This document shows, piece after piece, positions 7,463-29,157 of a stretch of DNA of 45,428 nt. The stretch spans positions 1 to 45,428 of the forward strand of contig JADCES010000007.1 in assembly GCA_020250005.1 (NCBI GenBank), written 5' to 3'. Origin of the DNA: Roseomonas sp. Its GTDB lineage: Bacteria; Pseudomonadota; Alphaproteobacteria; Acetobacterales; Acetobacteraceae. Position 1 is the stretch's first letter. Every line of letters begins with the position of its first letter. The notes under the pieces are model-generated. The model was given only the letters and a program-made list of their open reading frames with translations, was not told the DNA's origin and searched no databases. The position numbers were made by a program, and so were the translations under genes.

Positions 7463-7488
7463 GCTGCGGTGAATTCCCTCACCGCAGC
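7463..7488. terminator. Candidate bidirectional terminator hairpin between convergent genes
   Basis: Perfect 10-bp inverted repeat GCTGCGGTGA-ATTCCC-TCACCGCAGC; overlaps the stop of the 7479 gene; no clear T-tract. Confidence 0.45.
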
Positions 7489-8357: not shown

Positions 8358-8358
8358 A

Positions 8359-9291
8359 TCAGGCGGCCTTTCGCGGCGCGGCGCGCAAGCGCGGGTCAAG
8401 CAAGCCGTAGAGCAAATCAACAATCAGATTGGCGCAAACCATGGTGATGGCGACCAGCAGCAAGATGCATTGCACCACCGCCAAATCCCGATTGGCGACG
8501 GCGACCACCAGTAATCGCCCCACCCCTGGCCAGGAGAATACACTTTCAACCACCACCGCCCCCGCGATCAAGGTGCCCACCATGAAGCCGATGATGGTGA
8601 CGGTAGGAATGGCGGCATTCGGTAAGGCATGGCCGGTGACAACTGCACGCCAGGGTACGCCTTTTGCGCTGGCGGTGCGGATATAGGGCTGGCCCAGAAC
8701 CTCAAGCATGGCGCTGCGCGTAAAGCGCGCCAAAACCGCTGCACCGCCAAGGCCCAAGGTAATCACTGGCAGAATGCCATGGCGCCAGCTTTCCTGCCCA
8801 CCTGAAGGTAGCCATCCAAGCTGTACGGCAAACACCAGCACAAGCAGCAGCCCCAAGACAAAGGACGGCACGGTAAAGCCTGCCACCGCGATGATCATCA
8901 CCACTCGATCCGCCAAAGAATTGCGATGCAAGGCAGCATAAATGCCAGCGGGAATGCCGAGACAAATCTTGATCGCAAGCGCAGGGAGCGTGAGCGCCAG
9001 CGTGGCCGGAATACGTTCCGTAACCAGCACAATCGCATCCCGCCCATCGCGCATGGACCGCCCAAGGTCACCCTGCAGGATGGCCCAAAAATAGGAGAGA
9101 TACTGCACCCAAATCGGCTCATCCAATCCCCATGCCGCGCGGAATGCCTCCACCGCTTCCGGTGGTGCATCTGCCCCCATGATGATTTGCGCGGGATCAC
9201 CCGAAAGGCGCAGCACCACAAAGGCAAAGGTAACGACCATGGCGATGGTCAAGGCAGCCCGCGCCAGGCGTGTGGCCAGAAAACGAAGCAT
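8359..9291 (-). CDS. Peptide-type (DppB/OppB family) ABC transporter permease
   Basis: MLRFLATRLARAALTIAMVVTFAFVVLRLSGDPA N-terminus; VESVFSWPGVGRLLVVAVANRDLAVVQ DppB C-terminal motif. Confidence 0.9.
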   Translation of the reverse strand: MLRFLATRLARAALTIAMVVTFAFVVLRLSGDPAQIIMGADAPPEAVEAFRAAWGLDEPIWVQYLSYFWAILQGDLGRSMRDGRDAIVLVTERIPATLALTLPALAIKICLGIPAGIYAALHRNSLADRVVMIIAVAGFTVPSFVLGLLLVLVFAVQLGWLPSGGQESWRHGILPVITLGLGGAAVLARFTRSAMLEVLGQPYIRTASAKGVPWRAVVTGHALPNAAIPTVTIIGFMVGTLIAGAVVVESVFSWPGVGRLLVVAVANRDLAVVQCILLLVAITMVCANLIVDLLYGLLDPRLRAAPRKAA

Positions 9292-10301
9292 CAGGCGGCC
9301 TCCTGCCCTATGTATCCTTGGCCCGCGCTCATTTCCCCATGCGCGACATGGCAGGCAACAAGCCGGCCATCTGGGCGCGCCTTCAGTGCGGGCGTTTCAC
9401 GCGCGCAAAGGCTGGTTGCCATCGGGCAGCGTGGATGAAAGGCGCAGCCCGAAGGCCGATCCGCCGGGTTGGGCGGGTCACCTTGCAAGACAATGCGCTG
9501 GCCCGCACGGCCAGGATGCGGAATGGCAGAGACAAGGGCGCGGGAATAAGGATGGGCCGGTTCATGCAGAACGCCATCCGGTTCTCCTTCTTCCACAATG
9601 CGGCCGAGATACATCACGGCGACACGGTGGCTCACTTGCCGAACTGCCCTGAGGTCATGGCTCACGAAAAGCATGGCGGTGCCGAATTGCTCCTGCAAAT
9701 CCACCAGCAAATTCATGACCTGCGCCTGAATCGAGACATCCAACGCGCTGATCGGTTCGTCACAAACCAGCAGCGCAGGATCGGTTGCCAAGGCACGCGC
9801 CAAAACCGCGCGTTGGCGCTGACCGCCGGAAAGCTCATGCGGATAGCGGGCACCCTGGTCAGGTCGCAACCCAACCGCGCGCAACAAGGTCTCAATCCGC
9901 GCGGCCCTTTCGGAACGGGCGCCGATGCCGTGGATCTCAAGCGGTTCACCCACTTGGGTCGCAATGGGCAGGCGACGATCAAGCGCGCCCAAAGGATCCT
10001 GAAATACCATTTGCATGCGCGCCCGCATGGCGCGCCAGACAGCACTGCCGGGTTGCGGCATCACCGCGCCGTCAAAACTGACATGCCCCGCATCCGGGGT
10101 TTCCATGCCGAGCACGAGCCGGCCTGTGGTTGACTTGCCGCAACCGGATTCGCCCACCAAGCCAAGCGTGCGCCCACGTTCCAATTTCAGCGAAACGCCA
10201 TCAACGGCCCGCACTTCCACCGCGCGGCCAAGCAAGCCCCGCCGCATGGCATAACGCCGTACCAGCCCATCAGCTTCAAGCAATGTTCCGCCGGCCTTCA
10301 T
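9291..10301 (-). CDS. Oligopeptide-type ABC transporter ATP-binding protein (OppF/DppF family)
   Basis: Walker [39 protein letters not shown]-terminal CAFHPRCP. Confidence 0.9.
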   Translation of the reverse strand: MKAGGTLLEADGLVRRYAMRRGLLGRAVEVRAVDGVSLKLERGRTLGLVGESGCGKSTTGRLVLGMETPDAGHVSFDGAVMPQPGSAVWRAMRARMQMVFQDPLGALDRRLPIATQVGEPLEIHGIGARSERAARIETLLRAVGLRPDQGARYPHELSGGQRQRAVLARALATDPALLVCDEPISALDVSIQAQVMNLLVDLQEQFGTAMLFVSHDLRAVRQVSHRVAVMYLGRIVEEGEPDGVLHEPAHPYSRALVSAIPHPGRAGQRIVLQGDPPNPADRPSGCAFHPRCPMATSLCARETPALKARPDGRLVACHVAHGEMSAGQGYIGQEAA

Positions 10302-11278
10302 GCAGGTATCCTTTCCAGCGGCAGCGCAGCAGGCGCCACGCGAATGCAGGCCGCGCGATGCTGACCAGAAAGGCCCATCAGGCCAGGTATTGCGGCATCA
10401 CAGGGGGCAGAACGAAATTGGCAGCGCGGCGCAAAGCCACAGCCAGGCGGCATGGCCCAGGGTTCCGGCACGCCACCCGGAATGGCAGCAAGGCGCCGGC
10501 GCGGCCCATCCATGGGCGGCAAGGCGCCGATCAAGCCTTGCGTGTAGGGATGTGCCGCCGCGTCAAAAAGCTGTGCTACCGGTGCCTCTTCCACGATGCG
10601 GCCGGCATACATGACCGCTACGCGTTCACAGGCTTCGGCAATCACACCAAGATCATGGCTGATCAGCACCAGCGCCATGCCCATCTGGCGGCGTATGGAT
10701 TGCAGCAATTCCAAAATCTGCGCCTGGATGGTCACATCCAAGGCGGTCGTGGGTTCGTCAGCCACCAGCAATTCAGGCTGACCGGCAAGCGCGATGGCAA
10801 TCATCACGCGCTGATTCTGCCCGCCTGATAATTCATGCGGATAGGCATCAAGCCTTCTGGCCGCGTCAGGGATGCCGACAAGATCAAGCAAGCGTTTTGC
10901 CTCGGCGCGCGCATTGCTGCCTGTCATGCCCCGGTGCAGACCGAGCGCTTCGATGATCTGCTTGCCGATACGATGAACAGGATTGAGGCTACTGGAGGGA
11001 TCCTGAAAAATCATCGCAATACGGCCACCGCGTACCTGCTCCAGAACAGGTGCCGGGGCGCCAATCAATTCCTGCCTATCCAGCATGACGCTGCCGGTGA
11101 TGCGGGCCTTGGGCGGCAGCAGGCCAAGCGCCGCAAGCCACGTGACGGATTTGCCGCAGCCGCTTTCGCCGACAAGCCCAACCGCCTCACCCTTGGCGAT
11201 TGAAAGATCTATGCCGCGCAGCGCTGGCGCGCCGTCAAAAGCGACCGACAGCCCAGTCAGGCGGACCAGCGGCTTCAT
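10298..11278 (-). CDS. Oligopeptide-type ABC transporter ATP-binding protein (OppD/DppD family)
   Basis: [39 protein letters not shown]-terminal GCGFAPRCQ; 4-bp overlap with both neighbours. Confidence 0.9.
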
Positions 11279-12891
11279 GCACCAACCCGTAAATTACCGG
11301 GGCCAAACATCATCGCCCAGCCAGAGGAGGCGCGCCATTCGATATTGCGCCTTTTAGCGGTGAACGCAGCCGCGTGGTGCAGGGTGATATAGCCGGGGTC
11401 CTCTCGTTCCACGATGGTCATGATACGGCGGAAAAGCTCGCGCCGGCGATTCATGTCAGTTTCGGCCTCAAGCGCGGTGGATGCCCGGTTGAATTCCTCA
11501 TTCGCCCATTCACCATTGCGCTCAGCCTCGGTACCCGGGCCAAAGCTGCGGAGCAGCCCTGCCACCGGATCGCCAAAGACGGAAGTGTTGGACCAATCGC
11601 GCACGCCGCGGCCAGGTGTGCGTTCCGTCACCTGCGCGAAGTTTTCTTTCATTTCGATCACGACGTTGATGCCAACCGTGCGCCACATCTCCACCATGAT
11701 CTGCGCATTGGCCACTTGGTTGGTGTAGTAATTGTTCAATAGCCGATATGGGATAGGCTGTCCGCGATAATTCGCCTCACGCAGCAGGCGCCGCGCCTCG
11801 GCGGGATCAAAACGGGGATTTTCCCAATCGGCCAGGAACATCTGGCCATAGCTTTCCATTTGCATACCGCGCGGGATTTTGGTGCGACCCGCCCAAAGCG
11901 CATCCACCAGCACCTGCCGATCAATGGCATGCGTCATGGCGCGCCGAATGCGGGCATCTGCCAGAACGGGGTGCGTCTTATCGAAAGCAAGCTTGCGGAT
12001 ATTGTTGATTGGGCTGCCCAGAACCTCAAACCGCGAATTGCGTTCAACAACCGTGATTTGATCCGGCGGAATATCGCAGGCGAAATCATACTCCCCAGAA
12101 AAGAGGCCATTCAAGCGGCCTGAAACCTCGGGCACCTCAACAAACCGTATGCGTCGCGCGGGTGGCCTGCCGCCCCAGTATTCATCATGCGCCTCTAGCA
12201 CCAGCAGGGTATCGGGACGAAACTCAGCGATGCGATAGGGGCCGGTACCGATCGGCGCGCGCCCCCAGCCGAGCCAGCTATCCGAACGCGCAAAGGCCGC
12301 ACGGGAGAATATGGCGCCAACACTTTGCGCTATGCGGCCTTCCAGCGTGACATCCGGCATGCGATTGACGAAGCGCACGGTTTGAGCATCAAGCACTTCC
12401 ACACGCTCAAGCCCCGGATAGGTGCGGCGCCCGACAGCAATCACTTCCGCCGGCGGTTCTTTGGTAGCTGTCCCGGCAAGCACCGTGGTGCGGCCAGCGC
12501 CAGTAGCACCTTGTGTACCAAACAGGCGATCCGCGAAGGAGAAGGCAATATCCTCGGCAGTAAGGACGCTGCCATCATGGAATTTCACGCCTTGCCGCAG
12601 CGTCAGATCAAGGGTGCGCGCATCAACGCGCCGCCAGGAAGTGGCAAGCCCGGGCGTCAGCGCGGCATTACCCAGCCAATCGGTTGCGATCAATTGTTCG
12701 GCGTAAAGACCGTGAATGCGGAAGCCCACGTTGGATTGTTCACGCGGCGGTTCAAAGGTATTTGAATTGGAAAGCCGCTGAACCGCGATGGTAAGTGTTG
12801 GGCGCGTATCAGCTTGCGCTAAGGCGGGCGTGGCAAGTGGCGCCCCCAACAGGGCGGCGGGAGTGGCGAGAAAACTACGACGACGCAACAT
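11275..12891 (-). CDS. Peptide-type ABC transporter solute-binding protein (SBP_bac_5), copy 2
   Basis: ORF 13158..11275; start with signal peptide MLRRRSFLATPAALLGAPLATPALAQA at 12891; DARIRRAMTHAIDRQVLVDALWAG typical of the family. Confidence 0.9.
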   Translation of the reverse strand: MLRRRSFLATPAALLGAPLATPALAQADTRPTLTIAVQRLSNSNTFEPPREQSNVGFRIHGLYAEQLIATDWLGNAALTPGLATSWRRVDARTLDLTLRQGVKFHDGSVLTAEDIAFSFADRLFGTQGATGAGRTTVLAGTATKEPPAEVIAVGRRTYPGLERVEVLDAQTVRFVNRMPDVTLEGRIAQSVGAIFSRAAFARSDSWLGWGRAPIGTGPYRIAEFRPDTLLVLEAHDEYWGGRPPARRIRFVEVPEVSGRLNGLFSGEYDFACDIPPDQITVVERNSRFEVLGSPINNIRKLAFDKTHPVLADARIRRAMTHAIDRQVLVDALWAGRTKIPRGMQMESYGQMFLADWENPRFDPAEARRLLREANYRGQPIPYRLLNNYYTNQVANAQIMVEMWRTVGINVVIEMKENFAQVTERTPGRGVRDWSNTSVFGDPVAGLLRSFGPGTEAERNGEWANEEFNRASTALEAETDMNRRRELFRRIMTIVEREDPGYITLHHAAAFTAKRRNIEWRASSGWAMMFGPGNLRVGA

Positions 12892-12895
12892 CACC

Positions 12896-14515
12896 TTAAC
12901 CCCCCCAATTGCCAGCCCGGAAATCCATGGCGAAGGCCGGGCTTGCCTTCCAGCGCGTATCGCGCCGCTTGGCGGTGAAGGTCGCGTTCTGATGCAGCAC
13001 GGTGAAGGCAGGGTCTTCGCGTTCCGCAATCTCCAGCATCCGGCGGAACGCGGCACGGCGGCGCGGACGATCCGTACTGGTTTCAAGTTCAGCGGATAGA
13101 CGGTTGAATTCCTCGTTCGTCCATTCGCCGACCTGCTGCTGCTGACCGCTTGGACCATGTTGGTTCACGATGGAGGAGACAGGATCGTTAAAGGGCGCGC
13201 TATTGGACCAATCCCGCACCGCACGCGGGGTTTCGCGGGAGAATATCTGCGCCCAATTCTCACGCATTTCGATCTGCACATTGATCCCAGCCTGGCGCCA
13301 CATTTCAACCAGCACTTGGGCCGTGGCGTTCTGGTTGGTGTAGTAGTTGTTCAGCAGGCGATAGGGGATCGGATCACCGCGATAATTCGCCTCACGCAAC
13401 AGGCGCCGCGCCTCATTCAAATTGAAGGCGGGCACCGCCCAATCCGCATGGAACATATCGCCATAATATTCCCACTGCAGACCCTTCGGCACCACGGTGC
13501 GGCCAGCCCAAAGACTGTCAACAATCGCCTGGCGATCAATGGCATGGGTCATGGCGCGCCTTATCCGCGCATCACGAAGCTGGGGGTGGTTCTTGTCAAA
13601 CACCGTAAGGCGATGATTCAGAATAGTCCCACCCTGTACTTCAAAGGCGCGATTGCGCTCGATCCCGGCAATTTGGTCAGGCGGCATGTCGCAGGCGAAT
13701 TGATATTCGCCCGACAGTAAGCCATTCAGGCGTGACGCAACTTCCGGCACTTCAACAAAGCGGATTTGCCGCAAGGGTGGGCGTCCGCCCCAATATTGAT
13801 CATGCGCGACCAGCGTCAGCGAGACATCAGGGCGGAATTCCGCCACCATATAAGGGCCTGTCGTGATAGGCTTACGCGCCCAATCAAGCCAGCTTGCAGC
13901 TTCATTAAAGCCACGACGTGAACAGATGTCGCTGCCATACCGGGCAAGCCGCCCTTCCATGGTTACATCCGGCGTCCGGTTCACGAAGCGCACGGTGTAA
14001 CGATCAACCACTTCAACCTTCTCAAGGGCCGGCCAGATACGCCGGGAAACGGCCACAACTTCGGGGGGAAGCTCCTTGCCTTGCGGCCCTTGACCAGGAA
14101 TGCGCGTGAAAAGTGTACCGCCGGCAGTGGTACCAGGCGTGCCGATCCCGAACATTCGTTCCGGCCCAAAGGAGAATGCCACATCCTCAGCCGTCATCTC
14201 ATCGCCATTGTGGAACATCACGCCCCGGCGTAGGGAAAGTTCAACCGTGCGATCATCAATACGGCGCCATTCCGTGGCGAGCCCCGGCATTGTTTCCAGA
14301 TTGCCGAGCCAATTCCGCCCCAGCAGCCCTTCCCAAAGTGAGGTGAAGAAGATGCGCTCACCTACGTTGGACTGTTCGCGCAATACCTCTAAGGTATTGC
14401 TATTGACGATTTTCTGCACAGCGATCGTGATCGAAGGGCGCTGATCCGATTGGGCAATTGCAAAACTAGGCAATAAGGCCAAGCCCGGAAGGGCAAGAAG
14501 TTCACGGCGCAGCAT
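12896..14515 (-). CDS. Peptide-type ABC transporter solute-binding protein (SBP_bac_5), copy 1
   Basis: Start MLRRELLALPGLALLPSFAIAQ at 14515; strongly similar in sequence to the downstream SBP (shared RFVEVPEV..RLNGL.SGEY.FACD.PPDQI and IPYRLLNNYYTNQ blocks). Confidence 0.9.
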   Translation of the reverse strand: MLRRELLALPGLALLPSFAIAQSDQRPSITIAVQKIVNSNTLEVLREQSNVGERIFFTSLWEGLLGRNWLGNLETMPGLATEWRRIDDRTVELSLRRGVMFHNGDEMTAEDVAFSFGPERMFGIGTPGTTAGGTLFTRIPGQGPQGKELPPEVVAVSRRIWPALEKVEVVDRYTVRFVNRTPDVTMEGRLARYGSDICSRRGFNEAASWLDWARKPITTGPYMVAEFRPDVSLTLVAHDQYWGGRPPLRQIRFVEVPEVASRLNGLLSGEYQFACDMPPDQIAGIERNRAFEVQGGTILNHRLTVFDKNHPQLRDARIRRAMTHAIDRQAIVDSLWAGRTVVPKGLQWEYYGDMFHADWAVPAFNLNEARRLLREANYRGDPIPYRLLNNYYTNQNATAQVLVEMWRQAGINVQIEMRENWAQIFSRETPRAVRDWSNSAPFNDPVSSIVNQHGPSGQQQQVGEWTNEEFNRLSAELETSTDRPRRRAAFRRMLEIAEREDPAFTVLHQNATFTAKRRDTRWKASPAFAMDFRAGNWGG

Positions 14516-14558
14516 AGGGGCTCTCCTGCGATGATGATTAATGGGCGTGACGGGTGGG

Positions 14559-16097
14559 TCAGACCGGGGGCTTGCGTTCTTCAAGGCCAAGCGGTGTGGC
14601 GCGATAATGCGTCAGCGTGCGTTCGGCATGGCGCATACGCTTTGACAAAGCCTTTTGCGCATAGGCCTTCACGAGATCCGCATGATCCGGATCATCCGCG
14701 AGGTTCGTGAATTGGTGGGGATCGCGGTTCAGGTCGAAGAAAAGAGGCGGCAGCGCGGCAAAATGGACATATTTGTATTGCGCGTCTTGCACCACGCACA
14801 ACGAAGACTCATCCATGGAAAGGCCGAGGGCGCTTTCCGGGTTTGAGTAGTGTACATCCCTAAAGTCATACTCATAAAACAGTACATCGCGCCAAGCTTT
14901 ACTCGGCAGATGCTCCAGCAACGGAAGCAATGAATGCCCGTCGCTGGAACGCGGCGCTGCACCACCAAGCGCTTCAAGGATCGTGGGCATCACATCCACG
15001 CTTTCGGTGAAGGCTTCTTCAATGGCACCCGCGCGGGTATTCCGCCCTGCATCCTTGATCACCAGTGGGATGCGGAAGCTTTCATCAAAATAACCGACCT
15101 TGCCGAGCAACCAATGATCGCCCAGCTGCTCACCATGATCTGAGGTGAAAATGATCATGGTGTTTTCCCATTGCCCATTCTCCTCCAACCAGGTGAAGAC
15201 ACGGCCAAGGCAATCATCAATTTCGGTAATCAGCCCGGCATAGGTCGCGCGCATTTGGCGGATGGAAGCCTCATCCAGCGTGCTCGCCGTGCCGCCGGCA
15301 CCATGGAAGAAGGAACCCTGTTTGATGTCGCGCAGATAGTGCCGGAGCAGCGGGTGCTGAGTCGTCTCCTCCTCCCAATGCGGCTTGCGCACGGGGGCCG
15401 GCATATCCTCTGGGCGGTACATCTTGTGATAGGGCGCCGGCGCGATGAAGGGCGGGTGCGGGCGATAATACCCAAGATGCAGGAACCAAGGCTTACCATT
15501 GCAGCCCTTGAGGTACGTCAGCGCCCGTTCGGTGAAATAGGTGCTGTCAGACAATTCAGCCGGGATACGGCAGGGCCGATCTGTGACGCCGGGGACAGCA
15601 TCCTCACCTTCGGGCAGCCAAATATCCTCCCGACGCGGCGGAAGCTTATATCCTTGATGCGCGAGCCAGCCGAAATAGCCATCCATGCTGGGTTCAAAAG
15701 CGCCAACGCTGCGGAAACCATCCATCAAATCGCCAAGCGTTGTGAAACGCGGATCGCGCGGGCCGGAAGTGCGCGGGTCTGGCGTGGAAGTCGTGTAGCC
15801 GATCAGGGCCGGGTCATAACCAAGCAACCGCAATTGCTTGGCAAGGTTAGTGTGGCGCGCATCAAGCGGTACTGTATTCTGCACCGCACGATGGTTCATC
15901 AAATAGAGCCCTGTGAGCAGGCTTGCCCGCGCTGGCCCACAAGGGACTGCATTCGTTACGTGATTGCGAAAGGTAACCCCTTCCCGGCATAGACGATCAA
16001 GATTCGGTGTACGCAGAAAATCTGCGCCAAGATGCGGAACAAAATCCGCGCGCCATTGATCAACAACAATGAGCAGGACGTTTTTTGGGGGAGCCAT
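14559..16097 (-). CDS. pehA: Phosphonate monoester hydrolase / sulfatase-fold phosphodiesterase (PMH, PehA-like)
   Basis: KNVLLIVVDQWRADFVPH, formylglycine site VPCGPARASLLTG, TNLAKQLRLLGYDPALIGYTTSTPDPRTSGPRDPRF, SDHGEQLGDHWLLGKVGYFDESFRIPLVIKDAG; closely resembles rhizobial PMH as I recall it. Confidence 0.9.
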   Translation of the reverse strand: MAPPKNVLLIVVDQWRADFVPHLGADFLRTPNLDRLCREGVTFRNHVTNAVPCGPARASLLTGLYLMNHRAVQNTVPLDARHTNLAKQLRLLGYDPALIGYTTSTPDPRTSGPRDPRFTTLGDLMDGFRSVGAFEPSMDGYFGWLAHQGYKLPPRREDIWLPEGEDAVPGVTDRPCRIPAELSDSTYFTERALTYLKGCNGKPWFLHLGYYRPHPPFIAPAPYHKMYRPEDMPAPVRKPHWEEETTQHPLLRHYLRDIKQGSFFHGAGGTASTLDEASIRQMRATYAGLITEIDDCLGRVFTWLEENGQWENTMIIFTSDHGEQLGDHWLLGKVGYFDESFRIPLVIKDAGRNTRAGAIEEAFTESVDVMPTILEALGGAAPRSSDGHSLLPLLEHLPSKAWRDVLFYEYDFRDVHYSNPESALGLSMDESSLCVVQDAQYKYVHFAALPPLFFDLNRDPHQFTNLADDPDHADLVKAYAQKALSKRMRHAERTLTHYRATPLGLEERKPPV

Positions 16098-16131
16098 CGG
16101 ATCACCTTGAATTCAAGTTCGATGATCCGAT
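16096..16131 (-). promoter_or_regulatory. Nested inverted repeat over the PMH start codon and ribosome-binding region
   Basis: ATCGGATCA (16096-16104) / TGATCCGAT (16123-16131), perfect 9-bp arms, with internal palindrome CTTGAATTCAAG (16106-16117). Confidence 0.55.
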
Positions 16132-16330
16132 AACGGCTGAGATTTTCAGCGGCATGACGGTTATGCGTAATATTGATGACGTCTTAACCTGACACGCTAG
16201 AGACTATTGCCAAATGTTCACATAAGCCGGACGTAGGGCGGCATGGTCCTTAGGCGCATGGCTTCACATGGCCATGGTCGAAGAAGGGCATCCGCGCGCA
16301 TTCGGCACGACAGCTCGGTTTGCAATCGCT

Positions 16331-17296
16331 CTAAGCCGTGGCTGAACTTAATTCCCGCACTGACACACCGAGGCCGGCAAGAATATTAAAAGCCGCTTCG
16401 GCCTCAATTGCCTGACGCGCGGCGAGCGTAGCTGAACCAAGATGCGGTGTGAATAAGCTCCGCGGATGATCAAGCAGTGCGCGGGGTATGGCGCGGGGGC
16501 GGTCAGGCAAGGCCCAATCCTCCATGGCAAAGACATCCGCTGCATAGCCGCCCAATTGCCCCGTTTGCAGCGCTTCAGCTACGGCCATTTCATCCACGGT
16601 GGAACCGCGGCCAATATTCACCAAAAGCGCGCCCTTGGGCAGCAAGGCAATGGCTGAAGCGCCAACGAGGTTTCGTGTCTCTGCTGTGAGCGGCAGGGCA
16701 GCGATGACCAAATCTGCCCCTTGTAGGGCCTGTTCCAGCGGCATGCGCTCAACACCAGGAACATCATTCACAGGGTCAACCCCGCGTAGATGGCAGCCAA
16801 AGGGCATCAACCGCATGGCAATGGCGCGCCCGAGCCGCCCAAGCCCAAGGATCGTCACCTTTGCGCCGTCCAAGCCGAGCCCATAGAATTTCGGCCGCCA
16901 GCCGTGAAAATCTGCACGTACCGCTGCGTCCCCACCACGGATATGCCTCGCCAGGCCAATCGCAAGACCAATGGCGAGTTCGGCGGTGGGGGAAGTAAGC
17001 AAATCAGGCACGATGGAAACCGCGATACCGCGCGCTTCACAGGCCGCGATATCAATATTATCGGCCCCCTTCAGCGCGCAGGCCAGAACCCGCAGCTTGG
17101 GCGCAGCCGTCAAAAGCTCAGCATCCACACGGTCCGTCATGAAGGCCATCATGGCCTCTGCTTCGGCCAGAGCGCCACGCAGCGTGGCATTGTCCCAAGG
17201 TTCATCATCCGTGGGATGGGCGACCGGGCCAGCGCGTTCCAGCAGGGCACGCGTCGCGGGGAAAATCCGCGCTGTGGCAATGATTCGGGCAGTCAT
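16331..17296 (-). CDS. ptxD: NAD-dependent phosphite dehydrogenase (phosphonate dehydrogenase)
   Basis: MMAFMTDRVDAELL, CALKGADN, VPDLLTSPTAELAIGLAIGLARH, GLGRLG, NIGRGSTVDE, QLGGYAADVFAMEDWALPDRPRAI, LFTPHLGSA match PtxD motifs; directly follows a phnC-D-E-type transporter. Confidence 0.92.
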   Translation of the reverse strand: MTARIIATARIFPATRALLERAGPVAHPTDDEPWDNATLRGALAEAEAMMAFMTDRVDAELLTAAPKLRVLACALKGADNIDIAACEARGIAVSIVPDLLTSPTAELAIGLAIGLARHIRGGDAAVRADFHGWRPKFYGLGLDGAKVTILGLGRLGRAIAMRLMPFGCHLRGVDPVNDVPGVERMPLEQALQGADLVIAALPLTAETRNLVGASAIALLPKGALLVNIGRGSTVDEMAVAEALQTGQLGGYAADVFAMEDWALPDRPRAIPRALLDHPRSLFTPHLGSATLAARQAIEAEAAFNILAGLGVSVRELSSATA

Positions 17297-18090
17297 TTCA
17301 ATCTCCGTCTCAGCGCCGCACCCACGGCATCCACCACCAATACGCAGGCCAGAATAGCCAGCAAAATGGCCGAAACCTGCGCGTAGTCTAGCAGGCGCAA
17401 CGCCGCGATAAGCTGAAAGCCAATGCCGCCCGCGCCAACAATGCCCAGCACGGTGGAAGCGCGGAAGTGGTATTCCCAACGGTAAATCGTCACGTCAGCA
17501 AGCTGCGGGAGAACCTGCGGCAGCACTGCATGGGTGATGACCTGCAATGGGGAGGCACCGGCGGCCCGTGCCGCTTCGATTGGCCTCGGGTCCGCATGCT
17601 CAATCGCCTCAGCGTAAAACTTGCCAACCATGCCCACCGAGTGAAGGCCAAGTGCCAAAACACCCGGCAAGGCGCCGAAACCAACTGCGGCTACGAAAAG
17701 AATGCCCATGATCAATTCAGGCACGGAACGCAAAAAGGCCAATAATGTACGGGCGGCAAGTAAGATAACAGGATGGGGCGAGATATTGGGCGCCGCCAGC
17801 AAACCAAGCGGCAGAGAAATCACTACCGCCAAAGCCGTGCCTGCAATGGACATGGCGAGCGTATCCAGCAGCGGATTGAGCCAATCGCGCCAGCGGGAAA
17901 AATCCGGCGGCATCATTTCGGAGAAAAGCTGGCCGAGCGCAGGCATGCCTTCCGCGAAGCGCTGCAGATCAAAGAAGCCGGTCAGCGCAAGTGCGCCACA
18001 GGCAATGATCAGGATTACCCCAACCAAGCCGGTGCGGCTGACCAATGCGGCCCGATCAGCCTGAAGAATGCTATCCTGCGAGGGGTTCAT
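17293..18090 (-). CDS. ptxC: Phosphite/phosphonate ABC transporter permease (PhnE/PtxC)
   Basis: PhnE family: VPELIMGILFVAAVGFGALPGVLALGLHSVGMVGKFYAEAIEHADPRPIEAARAAGAS, STVLGIVGAGGIGFQLI. Confidence 0.9.
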   Translation of the reverse strand: MNPSQDSILQADRAALVSRTGLVGVILIIACGALALTGFFDLQRFAEGMPALGQLFSEMMPPDFSRWRDWLNPLLDTLAMSIAGTALAVVISLPLGLLAAPNISPHPVILLAARTLLAFLRSVPELIMGILFVAAVGFGALPGVLALGLHSVGMVGKFYAEAIEHADPRPIEAARAAGASPLQVITHAVLPQVLPQLADVTIYRWEYHFRASTVLGIVGAGGIGFQLIAALRLLDYAQVSAILLAILACVLVVDAVGAALRRRLK

Positions 18091-18947
18091 CCGCGCATCT
18101 GCGACAAATCGAGTTCAAGCAGGCGCGCTGTCTCACGTAGTACATTATAGGCTTCGTCATTTGTCGGCGCGAAGCCTTCAACACGGAAGCTGCGCAAGAC
18201 CTCAGCATCACGCAGGTCAATGAAAGCGGCACGGATGGCGACCTTCAAAGGCTCCGCCAGATTGCCTTGCAGGACCATCGGGTAATTCGGAATGGGTTCG
18301 GAAAGCCCAATTTCAACGATACGCGCCGCGTCTATGGTGCCGCGCCGGATCAGTGTATCCAAAATGGGCTTAGAGAGCGCGCCGGCGGGTATCTGCCCGC
18401 CTTGGACCGCACGCGCCACAGCATCATGGGTACCGAGATGAACAACTCGATAATCCCGCCCCCCAACAAGGCTTGCGCGTTGCAGGATTGTGGCCCGCGG
18501 CACCAGGTGTGAGGAGGTAGAAGCCTGATCCCCAAACCCGAAGGGCCGCCCGCGAATATCCGCCAATTCGCGCACCGGGCCGCCTGCCTGCCCAATCATC
18601 ACGCTCTGATAGGTGGGGGAGCCGCGTTCAACGCCAACGGCGAAGGGCTCAATCGCTGGGGCGCGCGACTTGGCCAGCACATAGGAAAACGGGCCAAAAT
18701 AGGCCACCTCAATGCGGCCAAAGCGCATGGCTTCGATCATGGAGGAGTAATCTGTGGTGACCACGATCTCCACTTGCCGTGCCAGTGCGCGTTCCAGATG
18801 CGCGCGCAGCGGCTGCGCATTCTGAATTATGGTGCTGGCATTTTCATCCGGTAGCAGGGCAACGCGCAAACGCTGCGGATCGCGGGGTTGGGCATGTGCC
18901 ATGACAGGAAGGGTGGCCAGACCGGCGATCAGGCTGCGGCGTTTCAT
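18087..18947 (-). CDS. ptxB: Phosphite/phosphonate ABC transporter solute-binding protein (PhnD/PtxB)
   Basis: [19 protein letters not shown] signal; LRVALLPDENASTIIQNAQPLRAHLERAL, VAYFGPFSYVLA, FGDQASTSSHLVPR; overlaps neighbours. Confidence 0.9.
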   Translation of the reverse strand: MKRRSLIAGLATLPVMAHAQPRDPQRLRVALLPDENASTIIQNAQPLRAHLERALARQVEIVVTTDYSSMIEAMRFGRIEVAYFGPFSYVLAKSRAPAIEPFAVGVERGSPTYQSVMIGQAGGPVRELADIRGRPFGFGDQASTSSHLVPRATILQRASLVGGRDYRVVHLGTHDAVARAVQGGQIPAGALSKPILDTLIRRGTIDAARIVEIGLSEPIPNYPMVLQGNLAEPLKVAIRAAFIDLRDAEVLRSFRVEGFAPTNDEAYNVLRETARLLELDLSQMRG

Positions 18948-19729
18948 GCGAATACCTCCTCACGGATAGGATTGCCCAGCGTCGGGGCGCCATAGAGACG
19001 GGCCGCGGCTGCATCATCAAGCCGGTCTGGCGGCCCATCGAACACAATCCGCCCGGCGGCTAAACCAATGATTCGCTCACCGAAGCGGCGCGCGAAATCG
19101 AGCTGATGGAGCGAAACCACGGCAGTCAGCCCATCCGCACGACAAATGCCATGCAGCAGGGTAAGCACGCGTTCCGACGTTGCTGGATCAAGGCTCGCCA
19201 CCGGCTCATCAGCCAAGATTAGCTTTGGCTTCTGCACTAAAGCACGGGCAATCCCGACTCGCTGTTGTTGGCCACCGGAAAGCTGATCCGCGCGTGCAAG
19301 AGCCTTATCCAAAAGGCCAACGCGTTCCAGAGCCTCAAGCGCCAGGCGCTTCTCCTGTGCAGTGAAGGGTAAAAGCGTACGCATGGCGGTATGGTAGCCA
19401 AGCCGGCCCATGAGCACATTGCCGAGGACCGAGACCCGTCCAATAAGCTGATGCTGCTGAAAGATCATGCCGGTTTCGCGTCGGTGGCGCCGCAAAGTGC
19501 GAGCTTCGGCGATATCCTCACCAAGGCTATCGAAGACACGGCCTTCAGTTGGACGAACGAGTCCATTTAGGGAACGGAGCAGGGTTGATTTACCAGCACC
19601 CGACGCGCCCAGTAGCACAGTGAAAGAGCTAGGCGTTATGGTAAGATCCACTGGCGCCAGAGCCACCGCACCATTTGGGTAGGTTACACTGAGCGATTGA
19701 GTTTGGATGGCAGGCTTCGAAGGAAACAT
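18944..19729 (-). CDS. ptxA: Phosphite/phosphonate ABC transporter ATP-binding protein (PhnC/PtxA)
   Basis: ORF 19882..18944; start MFPSKPAIQ at 19729; [44 protein letters not shown] typical of PhnC. Confidence 0.9.
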
Positions 19730-19762
19730 GACGATCGCGTAGGCGCTCGCCATGATGGTCGT

Positions 19763-19791
19763 ATGACAGAAAAATGAAGGTTTGATGTCAC
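19763..19791 (-). promoter_or_regulatory. Candidate Pho box upstream of ptxABCD
   Basis: Minus strand CCTTCAT-TTTT-CTGTCAT (5/7 and 7/7 to CTGTCAT) plus a further 11-bp-phased unit (plus strand ATGTCAC at 19785-19791); 34 nt from the ptxA start. Confidence 0.65.
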
Positions 19792-20064: not shown

Positions 20065-20082
20065 TCGTCATTCGAACGTCAC
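20065..20082 (+). promoter_or_regulatory. Candidate Pho box upstream of the pmtA-like gene
   Basis: TCGTCAT-TCGA-ACGTCAC, 7-4-7 direct repeat with GTCA cores 11 bp apart. Confidence 0.5.
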
Positions 20083-20163: not shown

Positions 20164-20775
20164 TTGGAGTCGGCCGTGTCGCAAGTCCATCTTACCGTCA
20201 GCGGAAAAGACAAACAATCACGCGACATAACTTTGTTCCTTCGACGCTGGCTTGCTAATCCTTTGCAAATGGGCTCCATCATTCCTTCATCGCCTAGGCT
20301 TGGAGAACTCATTGCCCGGCAGATAGACAGACAGTCCAATTCATTCGTGCTGGAACTAGGTGCTGGCACCGGTGCAATCACCAGAAGCCTGATAAATTCT
20401 GGTATTTCGCCGGGGCGCATCGCAGTTGTGGAAATCGTGCCGGAGATGGCCGATCATCTGCAAACAAAATTTCCTCAAACGACGGTGCTACAGGCAGACG
20501 CCTTCAATTTGCCTATCGAGCTATTGAAAGATACTACGACGGAAATAGGCACTGTTATTTGTGGCATTCCACTCGTTCTGCTCAGCGAATCCAGGCAGCG
20601 GCAATTCATTCAGCAGGTCGAGTTGGTGGCACCAGGGCGCGGCTTTCTTCTCTATACTGATTGTATCACATCACCGCTGCCATACCGCACCCTTGGGCTT
20701 GAGGCACGAAGGCTGGCCTGGACGCCTCTGAATTTTCCGCCGGCCAGTGTTTGGCACTACCGCCCCAAGAAATGA
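20164..20775 (+). CDS. pmtA: Phospholipid N-methyltransferase-like SAM methyltransferase (PmtA family)
   Basis: FLRRWLANPLQMGSIIPSSPRLGELIAR then SAM motif VLELGAGTGAITRSLI; FNLPIELLKDTTTEIGTVICGIPL; start may be GTG at 20176. Confidence 0.7.
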   Translation: MESAVSQVHLTVSGKDKQSRDITLFLRRWLANPLQMGSIIPSSPRLGELIARQIDRQSNSFVLELGAGTGAITRSLINSGISPGRIAVVEIVPEMADHLQTKFPQTTVLQADAFNLPIELLKDTTTEIGTVICGIPLVLLSESRQRQFIQQVELVAPGRGFLLYTDCITSPLPYRTLGLEARRLAWTPLNFPPASVWHYRPKK

Positions 20776-20779
20776 GGAT

Positions 20780-21658
20780 CTAGGGCACTACGACCCTGAG
20801 CGGTTGGGTGAATGGCACTATATGAATTGGCAGGCAGCCGGCGTCATCACCATCTGCCTGCACTGGTAAATCAGCGCCGAATACCTGAATGTCATGGCCG
20901 CGCTGCAGAGAGATGCTGGAAAGATAGGGAAGCTGGCCAAGACCCAGGGCGACGGCGTGCTTTAAAGCATCCATAAAATGATTTTGCTGGAGGGAAACTA
21001 CGTGAAAATAGGAATCACGCGGGTCTGCTTGCGGCGCAATCTGAAAGCGCCCTGCGTAATAGCGCCCCTTGGTGACAACCAGTCCGGAGGCTTCCAGTTC
21101 ATTCCCATCAATCTGTACCCGAAAAGAACGAAAGGGGTAGCAGGTCAAATCCCGCAAGGTTTGTAAAACATAGGCGCCCTTTCCGAAGACTCGCTTAAGG
21201 CCAAGCGGCAAATGATGGACTACAACTGAATCCAATCCAACCCCCACCATTTGAATGAAAAGACGATCCTTCAGGGAGCCCCGCTTCAAAATACCTGGAT
21301 AAACGCAAGTACTCCGGCCCATCAGAAGCGCCCGCGCAGCTTCGGGCGGATTAAGCGGTACCGACATTTCCAAGGCAAAGACATTTGCGGTCCCAAGAGG
21401 TAAGATACCCAGCATCGCCTGGGTCCCAACAAGGCCGGCGGCCACTTCCGCTATTGTGACATCCCCGCCTGCAGCGACAACAATGCCATTTTCCTCAGCG
21501 GCCAAACGCGCAAATTTTTCTGCATCACCACGCGCCCTGGTTTCCATAAGCTGAAATTGTACCCCCAGCCCATAAAGTAGATCGAGCGCAGTATGTAGCC
21601 TGGCACGCCGCCGCGTACCGGCTGAGGGATTGAAAATAACGACGAGATTCTTTGGCAT
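20780..21658 (-). CDS. Diacylglycerol kinase catalytic-domain protein (YegS/DgkB-like lipid kinase family)
   Basis: NLVVIFNPSAGTRRRARLHTALDLL, VVAAGGDVTIAEVAAGL, LGILPLGTANVFALEM. Confidence 0.8.
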   Translation of the reverse strand: MPKNLVVIFNPSAGTRRRARLHTALDLLYGLGVQFQLMETRARGDAEKFARLAAEENGIVVAAGGDVTIAEVAAGLVGTQAMLGILPLGTANVFALEMSVPLNPPEAARALLMGRSTCVYPGILKRGSLKDRLFIQMVGVGLDSVVVHHLPLGLKRVFGKGAYVLQTLRDLTCYPFRSFRVQIDGNELEASGLVVTKGRYYAGRFQIAPQADPRDSYFHVVSLQQNHFMDALKHAVALGLGQLPYLSSISLQRGHDIQVFGADLPVQADGDDAGCLPIHIVPFTQPLRVVVP

Positions 21659-21739
21659 AGCCCCAAAGGAAACCCGAGAAAAATTGCATATTCGTGATGA
21701 TCTGGCGAATTTTCAATTAAATCATCCAATCAACCACAT

Positions 21740-21757
21740 TTGTCATTGAAGATTCAT
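21740..21757 (+). promoter_or_regulatory. Candidate Pho box upstream of the plcP-like gene
   Basis: TTGTCAT-TGAA-GATTCAT, 7-4-7 repeat (6/7 and 4/7 to CTGTCAT). Confidence 0.45.
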
Positions 21758-21857
21758 GCCACGATGCACAAGGGTGGGGTAGCGCCGCTTCGAATGTAAC
21801 AGGAAAGGTGGTGGCCGATTCGTATCGGCGCCGGCTTCCGTAACAGGAGCGTAGATC

Positions 21858-22685
21858 ATGACCCTCGCTTCAGCACCGCGATGCTATCGCACCATCTTCC
21901 TCTCAGATATCCATCTTGGCCTTCGCAGTTGTCGCAGTGACTCCCTAGTAGATTTCCTGCGTAACGTTCAATGCGAAAAACTCTATCTCGTCGGTGATAT
22001 CATTGATGGCTGGCGCCTTCGGCGATCCTGGTACTGGGATGCCTATCATGACGAAGTCATCCGCCTGATCCTCCGAATGGCACGCCACGGAACAGAGGTG
22101 ACCTATGTTCCCGGCAATCACGATGAAATCTTCCGCGACTGGCTTGGGCTTGAAGTGGCGGGGGTAAAATTATCGCGTGAAGCCGAGCATATTGCGGCGG
22201 ATGGTCGTCGGTTTCTCGTCATCCATGGTGATGAGTTTGATGGTGTTATTCGTTATGCCAAATTCCTCGCCCATATGGGCGATTGGGCCTATGATTTGGC
22301 CCTATTGATCAATCGCTGGTTCAATTTCCTTCGGCGCCGCTTGGGCTATCCGTATTGGTCCCTATCACAATGGCTGAAGCGTCAAGTGAAGGAAGCGGTC
22401 AAAGCCATAGACCGCTTTGAGACAGCTCTCGCACAAGAAGCGCGCTCCCGCGGCATGGATGGCGTGATTTGTGGCCATATTCATCACGCGGAAATGCGGA
22501 TGATTCACGGTATTCTATATATGAATGATGGCGATTGGGTGGAAAGCTGTACGGCCTTGGTTGAACATCAAGATGGCCGCTTTGAATTGCTCGATTGGTC
22601 ACACCGCGAGACTCTCGTGATGGGGAAACCGGTGCCCATGCCGGCACCCGATCTGATGGCAGAAGTTTTGCGCGGTGTTCGATAA
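21858..22685 (+). CDS. plcP: PlcP-like metallophosphoesterase (phospholipase C involved in lipid remodelling; often annotated UDP-2,3-diacylglucosamine diphosphatase)
   Basis: YRTIFLSDIHLGLRSCRSD, YLVGDIIDGWRLRRSWYW, VPGNHDEIFRDW, VIHGDEFDGVIRYAKFLAHMGDWAYDLAL, DGVICGHIHHAEMR; next to a GT4 glycosyltransferase as in known plcP-agt loci. Confidence 0.75.
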   Translation: MTLASAPRCYRTIFLSDIHLGLRSCRSDSLVDFLRNVQCEKLYLVGDIIDGWRLRRSWYWDAYHDEVIRLILRMARHGTEVTYVPGNHDEIFRDWLGLEVAGVKLSREAEHIAADGRRFLVIHGDEFDGVIRYAKFLAHMGDWAYDLALLINRWFNFLRRRLGYPYWSLSQWLKRQVKEAVKAIDRFETALAQEARSRGMDGVICGHIHHAEMRMIHGILYMNDGDWVESCTALVEHQDGRFELLDWSHRETLVMGKPVPMPAPDLMAEVLRGVR

Positions 22686-22689
22686 CGCC

Positions 22690-23691
22690 ATGCGCATTCT
22701 AATCGTCAGTGATGCCTGGTTTCCGCAAGTGAATGGTGTTGTGCGCACATTGTCGGTTGTCGCAGACAAACTGAGAGCCATGGGCGATACGGTCGAAGTG
22801 ATAGGTCCCGACCGCTTCCGCAGCATGCCCACGCCAGGCTATGCGGAAATCCGGCTTGCCATCGCACCCAAGCGCAAACTGGCGCGTCTTGTCGCGGAAT
22901 TCAGGCCGGAGATTATTCATATCGCGACAGAGGGACCACTTGGTTGGGCCATGCGGAGCCTTTGCCGGCGCAACCACTGGCCCTTCACAACAGCCTTTCA
23001 CACGCGTTTCCCGGAATACCTCGAGGCTAGAACTGGGATTCCTGCCGATTGGTCCTGGCGCGTCATGCGCCACTTCCATGAAGCGGGTGATGGTACCTTC
23101 GCCGCCACAGCCTCCTTAAGGCAGGAACTGACAAGACGCGGCTTCACCAAGCTCCGTCCCTGGACCAGGGGGGTAGACCTTGAAAAATTTCGTCCAGGCG
23201 AGGGTGATTCCTGGGCGGGTCTGCCGCGGCCTATCTTTCTCTACGCAGGTCGCGTAGCGATTGAGAAGAATATTGAGGCCTTCCTCGCTCTCGATCTACC
23301 TGGCAGCAAAGTGGTTGTCGGTGGTGGTCCAGCCCTGGAAGGCCTGAAACAGAAGTTTCCGCAGGTCACCTTCACAGGTTATCGCGAAAATGGCGCGCTT
23401 GCCCGTTCCTTTGCTGGGGCAGATGTTTTTGTTTTTCCATCCCGGACAGATACCTTCGGGTTAGTCCTTCTTGAAGCACTGGCCTCGGGGACGCCTGTTG
23501 CGGCCTTTCCGGTCACTGGCCCCATTGACGTGGTGACCGATTCACGCGTTGGCGCTTTGGATGAGGATCTTCGGGCTGCCTGCCTCAAGGCCCTGGAATG
23601 TGACCGCGCTGCTTGCCGTACCCATGCGGAGGCATGGTCCTGGGATGCCTGTGTGGCGCAGTTCAGGGCAGCGCTCGTGCCAATCAAATAA
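22690..23691 (+). CDS. agt: GT4-family glycosyltransferase, candidate diacylglycerol glycosyltransferase (Agt)
   Basis: MRILIVSDAWFPQVNGVVRTLSVVADKLRAMGDTVEVIGPDRF, FPSRTDTFGLVLLEALASGTPVAAFPVTGP; begins 5 nt after the plcP stop. Confidence 0.75.
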   Translation: MRILIVSDAWFPQVNGVVRTLSVVADKLRAMGDTVEVIGPDRFRSMPTPGYAEIRLAIAPKRKLARLVAEFRPEIIHIATEGPLGWAMRSLCRRNHWPFTTAFHTRFPEYLEARTGIPADWSWRVMRHFHEAGDGTFAATASLRQELTRRGFTKLRPWTRGVDLEKFRPGEGDSWAGLPRPIFLYAGRVAIEKNIEAFLALDLPGSKVVVGGGPALEGLKQKFPQVTFTGYRENGALARSFAGADVFVFPSRTDTFGLVLLEALASGTPVAAFPVTGPIDVVTDSRVGALDEDLRAACLKALECDRAACRTHAEAWSWDACVAQFRAALVPIK

Positions 23692-23702: not shown

Positions 23703-23731
23703 CTGTCATCATTCTTTAATCCTATCGTCAC
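23703..23731 (+). promoter_or_regulatory. Candidate Pho box upstream of phnDEE
   Basis: CTGTCAT-CATT-CTTTAAT-CCTA-TCGTCAC: three units in 11-bp phase, first unit 7/7. Confidence 0.6.
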
Positions 23732-23786
23732 GCGCTCATCATTCAACTCGGCCAAACGATCTTCAGTCCGACCATGGAGGATTATT

Positions 23787-24698
23787 ATGCTTGCTCGCCG
23801 TGCTACCCTCATGCTGCCCGGCTTGGCTCTCATGCCGCGTCTAGCGGGCGCGCAAGAAGATTGGCGCCAGCAAATTCGCGAAGTGCGCTTTGGCATGATC
23901 TCAGTCGAAAATGAGCGTGATGCCATTGCGCGCCTACAGGGCTTGCAAGCCTATATGTCGCGTGAACTGCGGACCACCTTCCGTGTCTTTCGCGGTTCGG
24001 ATTATGCTGCGGTTGTTGAAGCGATGCGCGCAGGCCATTCCGAACTCGGCTACCTTGGCCCGGCCTCCTATGGCTTGGCGCGGCGGGTCATGGGTGAACG
24101 TATCGCCCCCATCTTCCGCTACATAGATAATGAGGGCCTTGAGGGCTATCACAGCGTAATGCTCGTGAAGGCAGATAGTCCCTTCCAACAAGTGCAAGAC
24201 CTGCGCGGCAAGACGCTTGGCTTTAGCGATCCCAACAGCACTTCCGGCTTTCAGGTGCCAGGCTGGTTTCTTCGCCGGCAGGGTATGGACCCCGCAAGTT
24301 TCTTCGCGCGCACAGGGTTCACCGGCAGCCATGAACAGGGTGTCATGGCAGTCATCAACGGCACCTTTGACGCAGCGGTAGTTGCCTATTCAAATGAGCG
24401 TCGCAATACATTCCAACGTATGGCCGAAAAAGGGATGATCCCAAGTGGTGCGGTTCGTGTTGTTTGGAAATCACCGCTCATTCCGAATTCCCCGATTGTC
24501 ATACGCAAAGACCTTCCCGCCGCGCTGCAACGCGAAGTTATAGCCGCCTTGGCCGCATTTCCTGAACGCGACCCACAAGCCTTCCGCGATATGTCATCCG
24601 ATGCCCGTGGGTTAGCGGTCGCCAAGCACGAGGATTATCTTGATATCGTTGCTATCCTTGAAGAAAATGCCGCACGGCGGCGGGAACGGCGCTCCTGA
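23787..24698 (+). CDS. phnD: Phosphonate ABC transporter solute-binding protein (PhnD family)
   Basis: Start MLARRATLMLPGLALMPRLAGAQ at 23787; VRFGMISVENERDAIARLQGLQAYMSREL, LGYLGPASYGLA, GFSDPNSTSGFQVP. Confidence 0.88.
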   Translation: MLARRATLMLPGLALMPRLAGAQEDWRQQIREVRFGMISVENERDAIARLQGLQAYMSRELRTTFRVFRGSDYAAVVEAMRAGHSELGYLGPASYGLARRVMGERIAPIFRYIDNEGLEGYHSVMLVKADSPFQQVQDLRGKTLGFSDPNSTSGFQVPGWFLRRQGMDPASFFARTGFTGSHEQGVMAVINGTFDAAVVAYSNERRNTFQRMAEKGMIPSGAVRVVWKSPLIPNSPIVIRKDLPAALQREVIAALAAFPERDPQAFRDMSSDARGLAVAKHEDYLDIVAILEENAARRRERRS

Positions 24699-24721
24699 CC
24701 GCTTCCCCTTCTGTTCTTGCA

Positions 24722-25555
24722 GCGGAGTCGCGCTGGCAGGAGGCGAAGGCCCTTCGTCAGCGCAATTGGTTTCTCAGTGCTGCATTGCTTTCCTTGGCCA
24801 TCGCGCTATCCGCCTTGGTGGGAGAGGTCAGCATCACGCGGCTGGTCCAGGGCCTTCCATTGGCCGGCGCTTACATAGCGGGCACCCTACCACGCCTCCG
24901 CTTAGACCATCTCTCGGCTGATCTTGCCCATTGGATGTGGGGATTTACGGATTGGCTGGAACTTCTGGCTGATACGATTTTGATTGCCTATGTTGGAACG
25001 GTTCTGGGCGGCTTGGTCGCACTATTGATTTCCTTTCCAGCGGCGGCGACCCTGGCACCAGCTTGGATTGTCATGCCGGTGCGGCGCTTTCTGGAATTGC
25101 TGCGCACCACACCAACCCTCGTTCTCGCCCTCATCTTCGTTTACGCTTTTGGCCTTGGAGCCTTTGCAGGCATGCTGGCCATTGCCGTGCATACTGCGGG
25201 CGCATTGGGCAAGCTTTTTGCGGAAGAACATGAGAATGCATCACTGGCACAGATGGAAGCCGTCCGCGCTGCCGGCGGCACTTGGGCGGCACAGATGCGC
25301 TATGGTATTTTTCCGCAATCCCTGCCTGGTGTCTTGAGCTACGGCCTACTGCGTTTTGAAATCAATGTCCGAGAAGCGAGCGTGCTTGGCATTGTCGGTG
25401 CTGGCGGGATTGGCGAGGAGCTTTATTTGGCCGTGCGTCAATTTGAGTATCAGGATATCTCGGCCATTCTGCTGCTGATTCTGGCGACGGTCGCCGCGAT
25501 TGACCTGCTATGTGGTCGCCTGCGCCATATCGTCTTGGGGAAGGCGGGCGCATGA
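24722..25555 (+). CDS. phnE: Phosphonate ABC transporter permease (PhnE family), first copy
   Basis: PhnE motifs TPTLVLALIFVYAFGLGAFAGMLAIAVHTAGALGKLFAEEHENA, ASVLGIVGAGGIGEELY; the frame is open upstream of the TTG at 24785 (AESRWQEAKALRQRNWFLSAA) so the start is approximate. Confidence 0.85.
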   Translation, partial: AESRWQEAKALRQRNWFLSAALLSLAIALSALVGEVSITRLVQGLPLAGAYIAGTLPRLRLDHLSADLAHWMWGFTDWLELLADTILIAYVGTVLGGLVALLISFPAAATLAPAWIVMPVRRFLELLRTTPTLVLALIFVYAFGLGAFAGMLAIAVHTAGALGKLFAEEHENASLAQMEAVRAAGGTWAAQMRYGIFPQSLPGVLSYGLLRFEINVREASVLGIVGAGGIGEELYLAVRQFEYQDISAILLLILATVAAIDLLCGRLRHIVLGKAGA

Positions 25556-26325
25556 GAGTTCCGTTCATGACGCCGGTAATTTTCATCCTGGGCGCACTGC
25601 TGTTGGTTGCAGGCCTTTGGCGCATGGATGCTTCACCTGAACGCATCTGGCTTGGCCTGACCAAATTGGGCTGGCTGGTAGCCTTGATGTGGCCCCCTTC
25701 TGCCGGTGGCGTCTTCTGGGAATTGCTGAAAAGCCTTTTGGAAAGCCTTGCCATGGCCTTCCTTGGCACGCTGCTGGCGGCAGTAATTGCGGTGCCACTC
25801 GCATTGCTCGGCGCTGGCAATGTCATCGGCAATGTCATGCTGCGCTTTTCCGCCCGCCGCTTCTATGATGGACTGCGCGGCATTGATACGCTGATCTGGG
25901 CTTTGATCTTTGTTGCAGCGGTTGGCATGGGGCCCTTCGCGGGTATTCTTGCCCTGGCCGTGCCGGATATTGGCGTATTGGCGAAGCTGTTCAGTGAGGC
26001 TTTGGAAGGCGCCGATCGCCGGCAGGTGGAAGCGGTGCGCGCGGCTGGCGCCAACCGCGTCCTTGCCGTGAGGATTGGCTTGATGCCTCAGGTATCGCCG
26101 GTGATGCTTTCCCAAGTGCTGTATACTTTGGAATCCAATGCGCGATCTTCAACGGTGCTCGGGATTGTGGGGGCTGGTGGGATTGGTTTAGCGCTGTCCG
26201 ATCGAATTCGGATCAATAACTGGGATGAGGTTGCCTTCATCATTCTCCTGATCCTTGGTATGGTGGCCTGCATTGACTGGACCAGCCGAAAGCTGCGCTT
26301 GAAGCTGATTAGGCCGACGGCATAA
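25552..26325 (+). CDS. phnE: Phosphonate ABC transporter permease (PhnE family), second copy
   Basis: ATG at 25552 overlaps the previous stop (ATGA); DTLIWALIFVAAVGMGPFAGILALAVPDIGVLAKLFSEALEGADRRQVEAVRAAGA, STVLGIVGAGGIGLALSDRI. Confidence 0.88.
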   Translation: MRVPFMTPVIFILGALLLVAGLWRMDASPERIWLGLTKLGWLVALMWPPSAGGVFWELLKSLLESLAMAFLGTLLAAVIAVPLALLGAGNVIGNVMLRFSARRFYDGLRGIDTLIWALIFVAAVGMGPFAGILALAVPDIGVLAKLFSEALEGADRRQVEAVRAAGANRVLAVRIGLMPQVSPVMLSQVLYTLESNARSSTVLGIVGAGGIGLALSDRIRINNWDEVAFIILLILGMVACIDWTSRKLRLKLIRPTA

Positions 26326-29152: not shown

Positions 29153-29157
29153 GGCCT

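Follow-up and report, generated by a model that had tools for sequence, protein, structure and literature searches.

An intact ptxABCD-type phosphite operon within a Pho-box-bearing phosphorus-scavenging island of a Roseomonas genome

The 45,428-nucleotide stretch of Roseomonas DNA analysed here (hereafter the window) carries an intact ptxABCD operon, which is very probably a functional assimilatory phosphite operon that would most likely be switched by PhoB and use no PtxE encoded beside it. The operon is embedded among phosphorus-scavenging genes that form a cluster of 40 kb, and has a Pho box just upstream of ptxA, two features that go beyond an earlier reading of the same DNA made from the letters alone (the sequence-only reading), which had proposed a complete ptxABCD-type operon for phosphite uptake and oxidation. 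The operon itself is a new but ordinary representative of a known pathway and its notable part is the genomic and regulatory setting.

In the proposed pathway, periplasmic PtxB would bind phosphite, PtxC and PtxA would import it with ATP and cytoplasmic PtxD would oxidise it to phosphate with NAD+ as the acceptor, so that phosphite could serve as a phosphorus source. When phosphate runs short, PhoB is expected to switch the operon on by way of the tandem Pho box that precedes ptxA, and the neighbours induced together with it may include the operons recovering glycerol-phosphate, phosphodiester, phosphonate and lipid phosphorus. We infer from the sequence the catalysis, the specificity of transport and the control by PhoB.

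The four genes lie collinearly in the order ptxA-ptxB-ptxC-ptxD on the minus strand (16331-19729), all of them are intact and neighbouring genes share 4-bp ATGA overlaps (n=3). An ATPase, a substrate-binding protein (SBP), a permease and a dehydrogenase, by which ptxABCD is defined, are thus present in one operon. PtxB scores 215 bits against the phosphate/phosphite/phosphonate SBP model TIGR01098 (cutoff 112) and stays under the cutoff of the phosphonate-specific PhnD equivalog (191 vs 261). The coordinates, the strand and the gene order ATPase-SBP-permease-dehydrogenase given by the sequence-only reading agree with the ORF positions and the curated profile models; its term "complete" is true of ptxABCD, the four genes being intact and ptxE being missing here but also from several other intact loci, and its remark that no ptxE-type LysR gene adjoins the operon is borne out, as pehA comes after ptxD. 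Judging by the PtxD clade, the active-site and pocket residues and the purifying selection described below, it is almost certainly an assimilatory phosphite operon.

Table 1. Features of the phosphorus-scavenging island in the window (names marked "inferred" are putative).
Feature	Position	Strand	Remarks
Pho box before ugp	737-765	+	
ugp-type ABC transporter	812-5070	+	
Metallophosphoesterase	5074-5901	+	after ugp
Phosphodiesterase	6020-7441	+	
Dpp/Nik-type ABC transporter	7479-14590	-	two family-5 binding proteins; overlaps pehA
SBP-type ORFs of Dpp/Nik transporter	11275-13158, 12896-14590	-	Pfam basis from 12896-14590
pehA, phosphoric/sulfuric ester hydrolase	14559-16097	-	next gene downstream of ptxD; NF045661 962 bits, cutoff 900
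ptxD, predicted NAD-dependent phosphite dehydrogenase	16331-17296	-	321 aa; PDB matches, PtxD clade, residues
ptxC, permease (PhnE family)	17293-18090	-	TIGR01097 295 bits, cutoff 217
ptxB, predicted phosphite-binding protein	18087-18947	-	best match PtxB 5o2j, E 1.9e-80; pocket residues kept
ptxA, ABC ATPase (PhnC family)	18944-19729	-	TIGR02315 302 bits, cutoff 266; ATG at 19729
Tandem Pho box upstream of ptxA	19752-19791	-	GTGACAT-CAAA-CCTTCAT-TTTT-CTGTCAT-ACGA-CCATCAT, 11-bp period
Second Pho-like box, same intergenic region	20065-20082	+	faces pmtA-like gene; TCGTCATTCGAACGTCAC; conserved in G034
PmtA/OlsG-family methyltransferase	20164	+	putative lipid remodelling; inferred; divergent from ptxA
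Lipid kinase	20780	-	putative lipid remodelling; inferred
PlcP-like metallophosphoesterase	21858	+	putative lipid remodelling; inferred
Agt-like glycosyltransferase	22675	+	putative lipid remodelling; inferred
Pho box before phnDEE	23703-23731	+	
phnD-phnE-phnE	23703-26325	+	including Pho box
2-Aminoethylphosphonate (2-AEP) transport phnS2, T2, U2 with phnX and TIGR03364 FAD oxidoreductase	26335-32188	-	
Pho box before 2-AEP genes	30227-30255	-	
Phytase-like esterase	32840-34234	-	own tandem Pho box
Pho box before phytase-like esterase	34262-34301	-	
phnC-phnD-phnE-phnE	36882-40461	-	
Pho box before phnCDEE	40473-40512	-	

Tandem PhoB-type repeats were found upstream of ptxA by sequence match. 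The best triple of this box has 4 mismatches, a value reached in 0/1000 shuffles of the intergenic region, and about 22 bp separate the box from the ATG. Aligned with the two nearest relatives (G024 and G034), the box stands out as a conserved block, while the rest of the intergenic region mostly differs in G024. The tandem consensus used for the search (CTGTCAY three times, 11-bp period, at most 5 mismatches), which reflects general enterobacterial and alphaproteobacterial boxes and may not match the host PhoB sites, has 9 matches in the window as compared to 0.25 on average, and never more than 1, over 60 shuffles. These 9 matches make up six sites, each of them just upstream of an operon and oriented in the sense direction. 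The control, besides the shuffles, was 126 kb from seven further contigs of the host genome, with 1 match. The pattern GTCAY-N6-GTCAY, tried before it, returned the box that faces the divergent pmtA-like gene but not that of ptxA; better sites were picked up by the tandem 11-bp consensus. The genome also encodes a PhoB that scores above the curated cutoff.

Control of the operon by a PtxE-like LysR protein encoded elsewhere in the genome, rather than by PhoB, is the best surviving alternative, though an unlikely one. In its favour, several relatives have ptxE immediately after ptxD, some of them of the same family and some plasmid-borne, with proteins 39-53% identical to reference PtxEs; these include the Roseomonas CECT 9278, Roseicella, Rubritepida and Elioraea loci. 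Against it, no ptxE adjoins ptx in the window, G024, G034, G029, L016, L017 and L021, nor in L024, L025 and L027, and the tandem Pho box upstream of ptxA is kept. The sole LysR gene of the window (35634-36581) is a weak match to ptxE (27.6%), and the window does not carry ptxABCDE as defined by a ptxE LysR gene after ptxD. Since ptxE is missing from other intact ptx loci, it is considered optional and not needed for ptxABCD membership, and its absence here and in several relatives makes PhoB control of the ptx operon probable. The idea that Pho boxes are confined to loci without ptxE was examined and is unsupported, weak or good ptxA boxes being found in several ptxE-bearing loci; PtxE and Pho boxes are thus not mutually exclusive.

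The dehydrogenase is closely related to known phosphite dehydrogenases. In a search of solved structures, its 14 best matches are all phosphite dehydrogenases (E 5e-87 to 4e-78) and the best structure of another kind is a glyoxylate reductase (E 4e-44), the lowest-scoring PtxD structure exceeding it by more than 110 bits. A maximum-likelihood tree was inferred with the PtxDs of the ptx loci and two reference rows, one identical to PDB 6ih2 (Rs-PtxD) and one almost the same in sequence as the P. stutzeri structures (Ps-type PtxD); E. coli GhrB and host paralogues served as 2-hydroxyacid dehydrogenase outgroups. The window protein lies well inside the PtxD clade (29 rows, support 100/100, stem 0.98), which leaves out E. 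coli GhrB and the host paralogues, and within it groups with Acetobacteraceae and other alphaproteobacteria in a subclade of 12 rows (support 100/99). It is 49.5% identical to the Ps-type protein, 44.9% to Rs-PtxD and 30% to GhrB.

Equivalents of the catalytic residues Lys76, Arg237, Glu266 and His292 are present as K76, R230, E259 and H285, accompanied by M53, W133, Y138, S288 and R294 (corresponding to Met53, Trp134, Tyr139, Ser295 and Arg301) and by the equivalents of Leu75 and Leu100. His292 is essential in PtxD, and Arg301 has been reported as conserved among PtxDs (PMC3909101, PMC6303947). Arg301 and Ser295 are shared with some outgroups of our alignment (L035, E. coli GhrB and L006) and are less exclusive to PtxD than published. 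Every PtxD row examined has K76 and M53, which are absent from E. coli GhrB and the tested host paralogues; the cleanest PtxD marker is K76. The sequence-only reading fares well on these points: comparison with other D-2-hydroxyacid dehydrogenases, which it had proposed as a check, yields matches specific to PtxD (E 5e-87 vs 4e-44); a position outside the PtxD clade had been set beforehand as a refuting outcome and the protein falls inside; the catalytic residues that it quoted in motifs are correct in alignment with the reference PtxDs; and the acidic residue that it noted in GVDPV, D174, aligns with Glu175 of the Ps-type enzyme and Asp175 of Rs-PtxD.

An ordinary D-2-hydroxyacid dehydrogenase, for example of the GhrB or phosphoglycerate type, standing beside a generic phosphonate transporter is a very improbable explanation of the locus. 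PtxD does belong to the same superfamily, and a survey nests PTXD within the GHRB subfamily (PMC6303947). Nevertheless, the gap of more than 110 bits, the fully supported clade without E. coli GhrB and the tested host paralogues, and the distribution of K76 and M53 all stand against it, as does a PtxB with the phosphite-specific cap; on the tree and the residues, we reject a generic identity for the enzyme. The window enzyme is thus supported as a PtxD, for which NAD-dependent phosphite oxidation is predicted. Its cofactor position, D174-P175 (Val-Asp-Pro), resembles Asp175-Pro176 (Cys-Asp-Pro) of Rs-PtxD, and a preference for NAD is predicted on account of this resemblance. After the cofactor Asp, the loop lacks 6 residues present in Ps- and Rs-PtxD, and a similar shortening is seen in related alphaproteobacterial PtxDs (G029, L021, L018 and L014). 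The fold is considered safe owing to the approximately 50% identity to solved PtxD structures; the kinetics or cofactor use may differ, given the identities of 49.5% and 44.9% and the 6 missing residues. The subclade would offer an NAD-type enzyme whose cofactor loop is shorter, of potential use for NADH regeneration.

PtxB of the window is, among solved structures, most similar to solved PtxBs. The phosphite pocket of PtxB consists of a Ser-Thr-Ser-His oxygen-binding set, Tyr49 and Tyr94, a capping Tyr and a latch Asp (PMC5700983), and it is complete in the window protein (latch D34, Y67, Y113, S143-T144-S145, H174 and capping Y222). The other two PhnD-type binding proteins of the window keep most of the Ser/His core and lack the latch Asp and the capping Tyr, which supports phosphite specificity of PtxB. 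The other PhnCDE transporters of the island could also carry phosphite weakly.

The genes around the operon (Table 1) include a putative lipid-remodelling set spanning 20164-23691. Import and oxidation of phosphite mainly for detoxification or energy rather than phosphorus supply is the least likely explanation, hardly to be entertained: PtxD chemistry gives NADH and dissimilatory phosphite oxidisers exist (PMC4046663), but the neighbours are phosphorus-scavenging genes, Pho boxes stand at the promoter and no ptd-type genes were seen among the identified proteins of the window.

Within the island, the phnX-type phosphonatase gene overlaps that of the TIGR03364 FAD oxidoreductase (30252-32188), beside the 2-AEP transport genes, and no phnW transaminase gene was recognised beside the two; the pair suggests use of (N-methyl)aminoethylphosphonate by oxidative entry. 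An IS3-like transposase gene (integrase core, 40821-41711) separates the island from a chemotaxis receptor gene (42568-44868). A second phnC-phnD pair is found in the same genome (G000, contig C225; L100 2500-3977), its PhnD being closely similar to that of the window phnCDEE, and this locus has a box of the same type.

Comparison with known systems places the operon close to the Pseudomonas stutzeri WM88-type ptxABCDE (P. aeruginosa pF061_1, L092), with which it shares the ptxABCD order, a single permease and the functional residues of PtxD and PtxB. It differs in PtxD sequence (identity as above), in the absence of ptxE, in having Asp-Pro instead of Glu-Ala at positions 175-176 and a cofactor loop 6 residues shorter, and in the Pho box directly upstream of ptxA and the surrounding phosphorus-scavenging island. 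Rs-PtxD, an identical protein being encoded on a Cupriavidus metallidurans plasmid (L090), shares Asp175-Pro176, the catalytic set and the ptxABCD order; it differs in sequence (44.9% identity), and on the Cupriavidus plasmid ptxD is followed by ptxE. Loci of other Acetobacteraceae and Rhodospirillales, namely Roseomonas CECT 9278 (L018), Roseicella (L019) and Elioraea (L022), fall in the same PtxD subclade and have PtxABC proteins 66-77% identical to those of the window. In L018-L020 and L022 ptxD is divergent from ptxABC and followed by ptxE, whereas the window, like G024, G029 and L021, has collinear ptxABCD without ptxE. Type 2 Pho-regulated lipid-remodelling clusters have plcP followed by agt (PMC4796936); the window shares a plcP-like gene directly before an agt-like glycosyltransferase gene in a Pho-box context, and differs in that this pair, whose enzyme names are putative, has a phosphite operon about 2 kb away. 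A literature search gave no paper combining the words phosphite, Roseomonas and ptxD.

These comparisons add an intact, conserved phosphite pathway in Roseomonas-like bacteria, and the link between phosphite use and a Pho-box island makes the view of phosphite as a routine phosphate substitute testable in isolate relatives. A wider proposal, about as likely as not, is that in this Acetobacteraceae lineage phosphite use may have been wired into one PhoB-controlled island along with membrane-lipid, phosphodiester, phosphonate and phytate-like ester recovery, direct Pho-box control having taken the place of a lost PtxE and PtxD forming a subclade with a shortened cofactor loop. If true, such wiring would imply that the organism regularly draws on phosphite for phosphorus in its habitat.

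The operon is conserved in the nearest relatives. The ugp-to-2-AEP gene content is found in the same order in G024, at 76-83% nucleotide identity, and is kept in G034 with one inversion; PtxC is 96-99% identical in the two. Values of dN/dS across the four ptx genes are 0.02-0.12 for the window against both relatives (0.07-0.11 for ptxD), with dS of about 1.0-1.3 against G024, and the operon is therefore under purifying selection. In G034 (C111, L037/L038), the closest relative, the equivalent of 640-19270, from upstream of ugpC to mid-ptxA, is inverted and ptxA is split in two; this is either a real inversion or a MAG assembly error, and G024 agrees with the window.

The distribution of ptxD is patchy. 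It was found in 7/59 sampled genomes, all of one genus, and in 13/299 sampled genomes of the order, the genome of the window being included in both counts; no PtxD relative was found in viral contigs. Recent transfer of the operon into the host genome was considered and is not supported, the island being syntenic in two relatives and the GC content of the contig (58.7%) being close to, and slightly under, the 60.5-64.2% of seven other contigs of the genome. Elsewhere, a segment of at least 16.3 kb with ptxABC, ptxD and ptxE is 99.97% identical among Roseomonas sp. CECT 9278 (L018 4612-20888), Roseicella frigidaeris (L019 3976-20251) and a Rubritepida MAG (L020 853-17112), reflecting either a ptx-bearing element that was transferred recently or contamination. 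The PtxD of the closest named relative, a Roseomonas sp. MAG (L015), is 96% identical to that of the window, and a family relative (G218) has two PtxD genes (C21:30808-31737 and C37:14499-15344), 70-72% identical to it.
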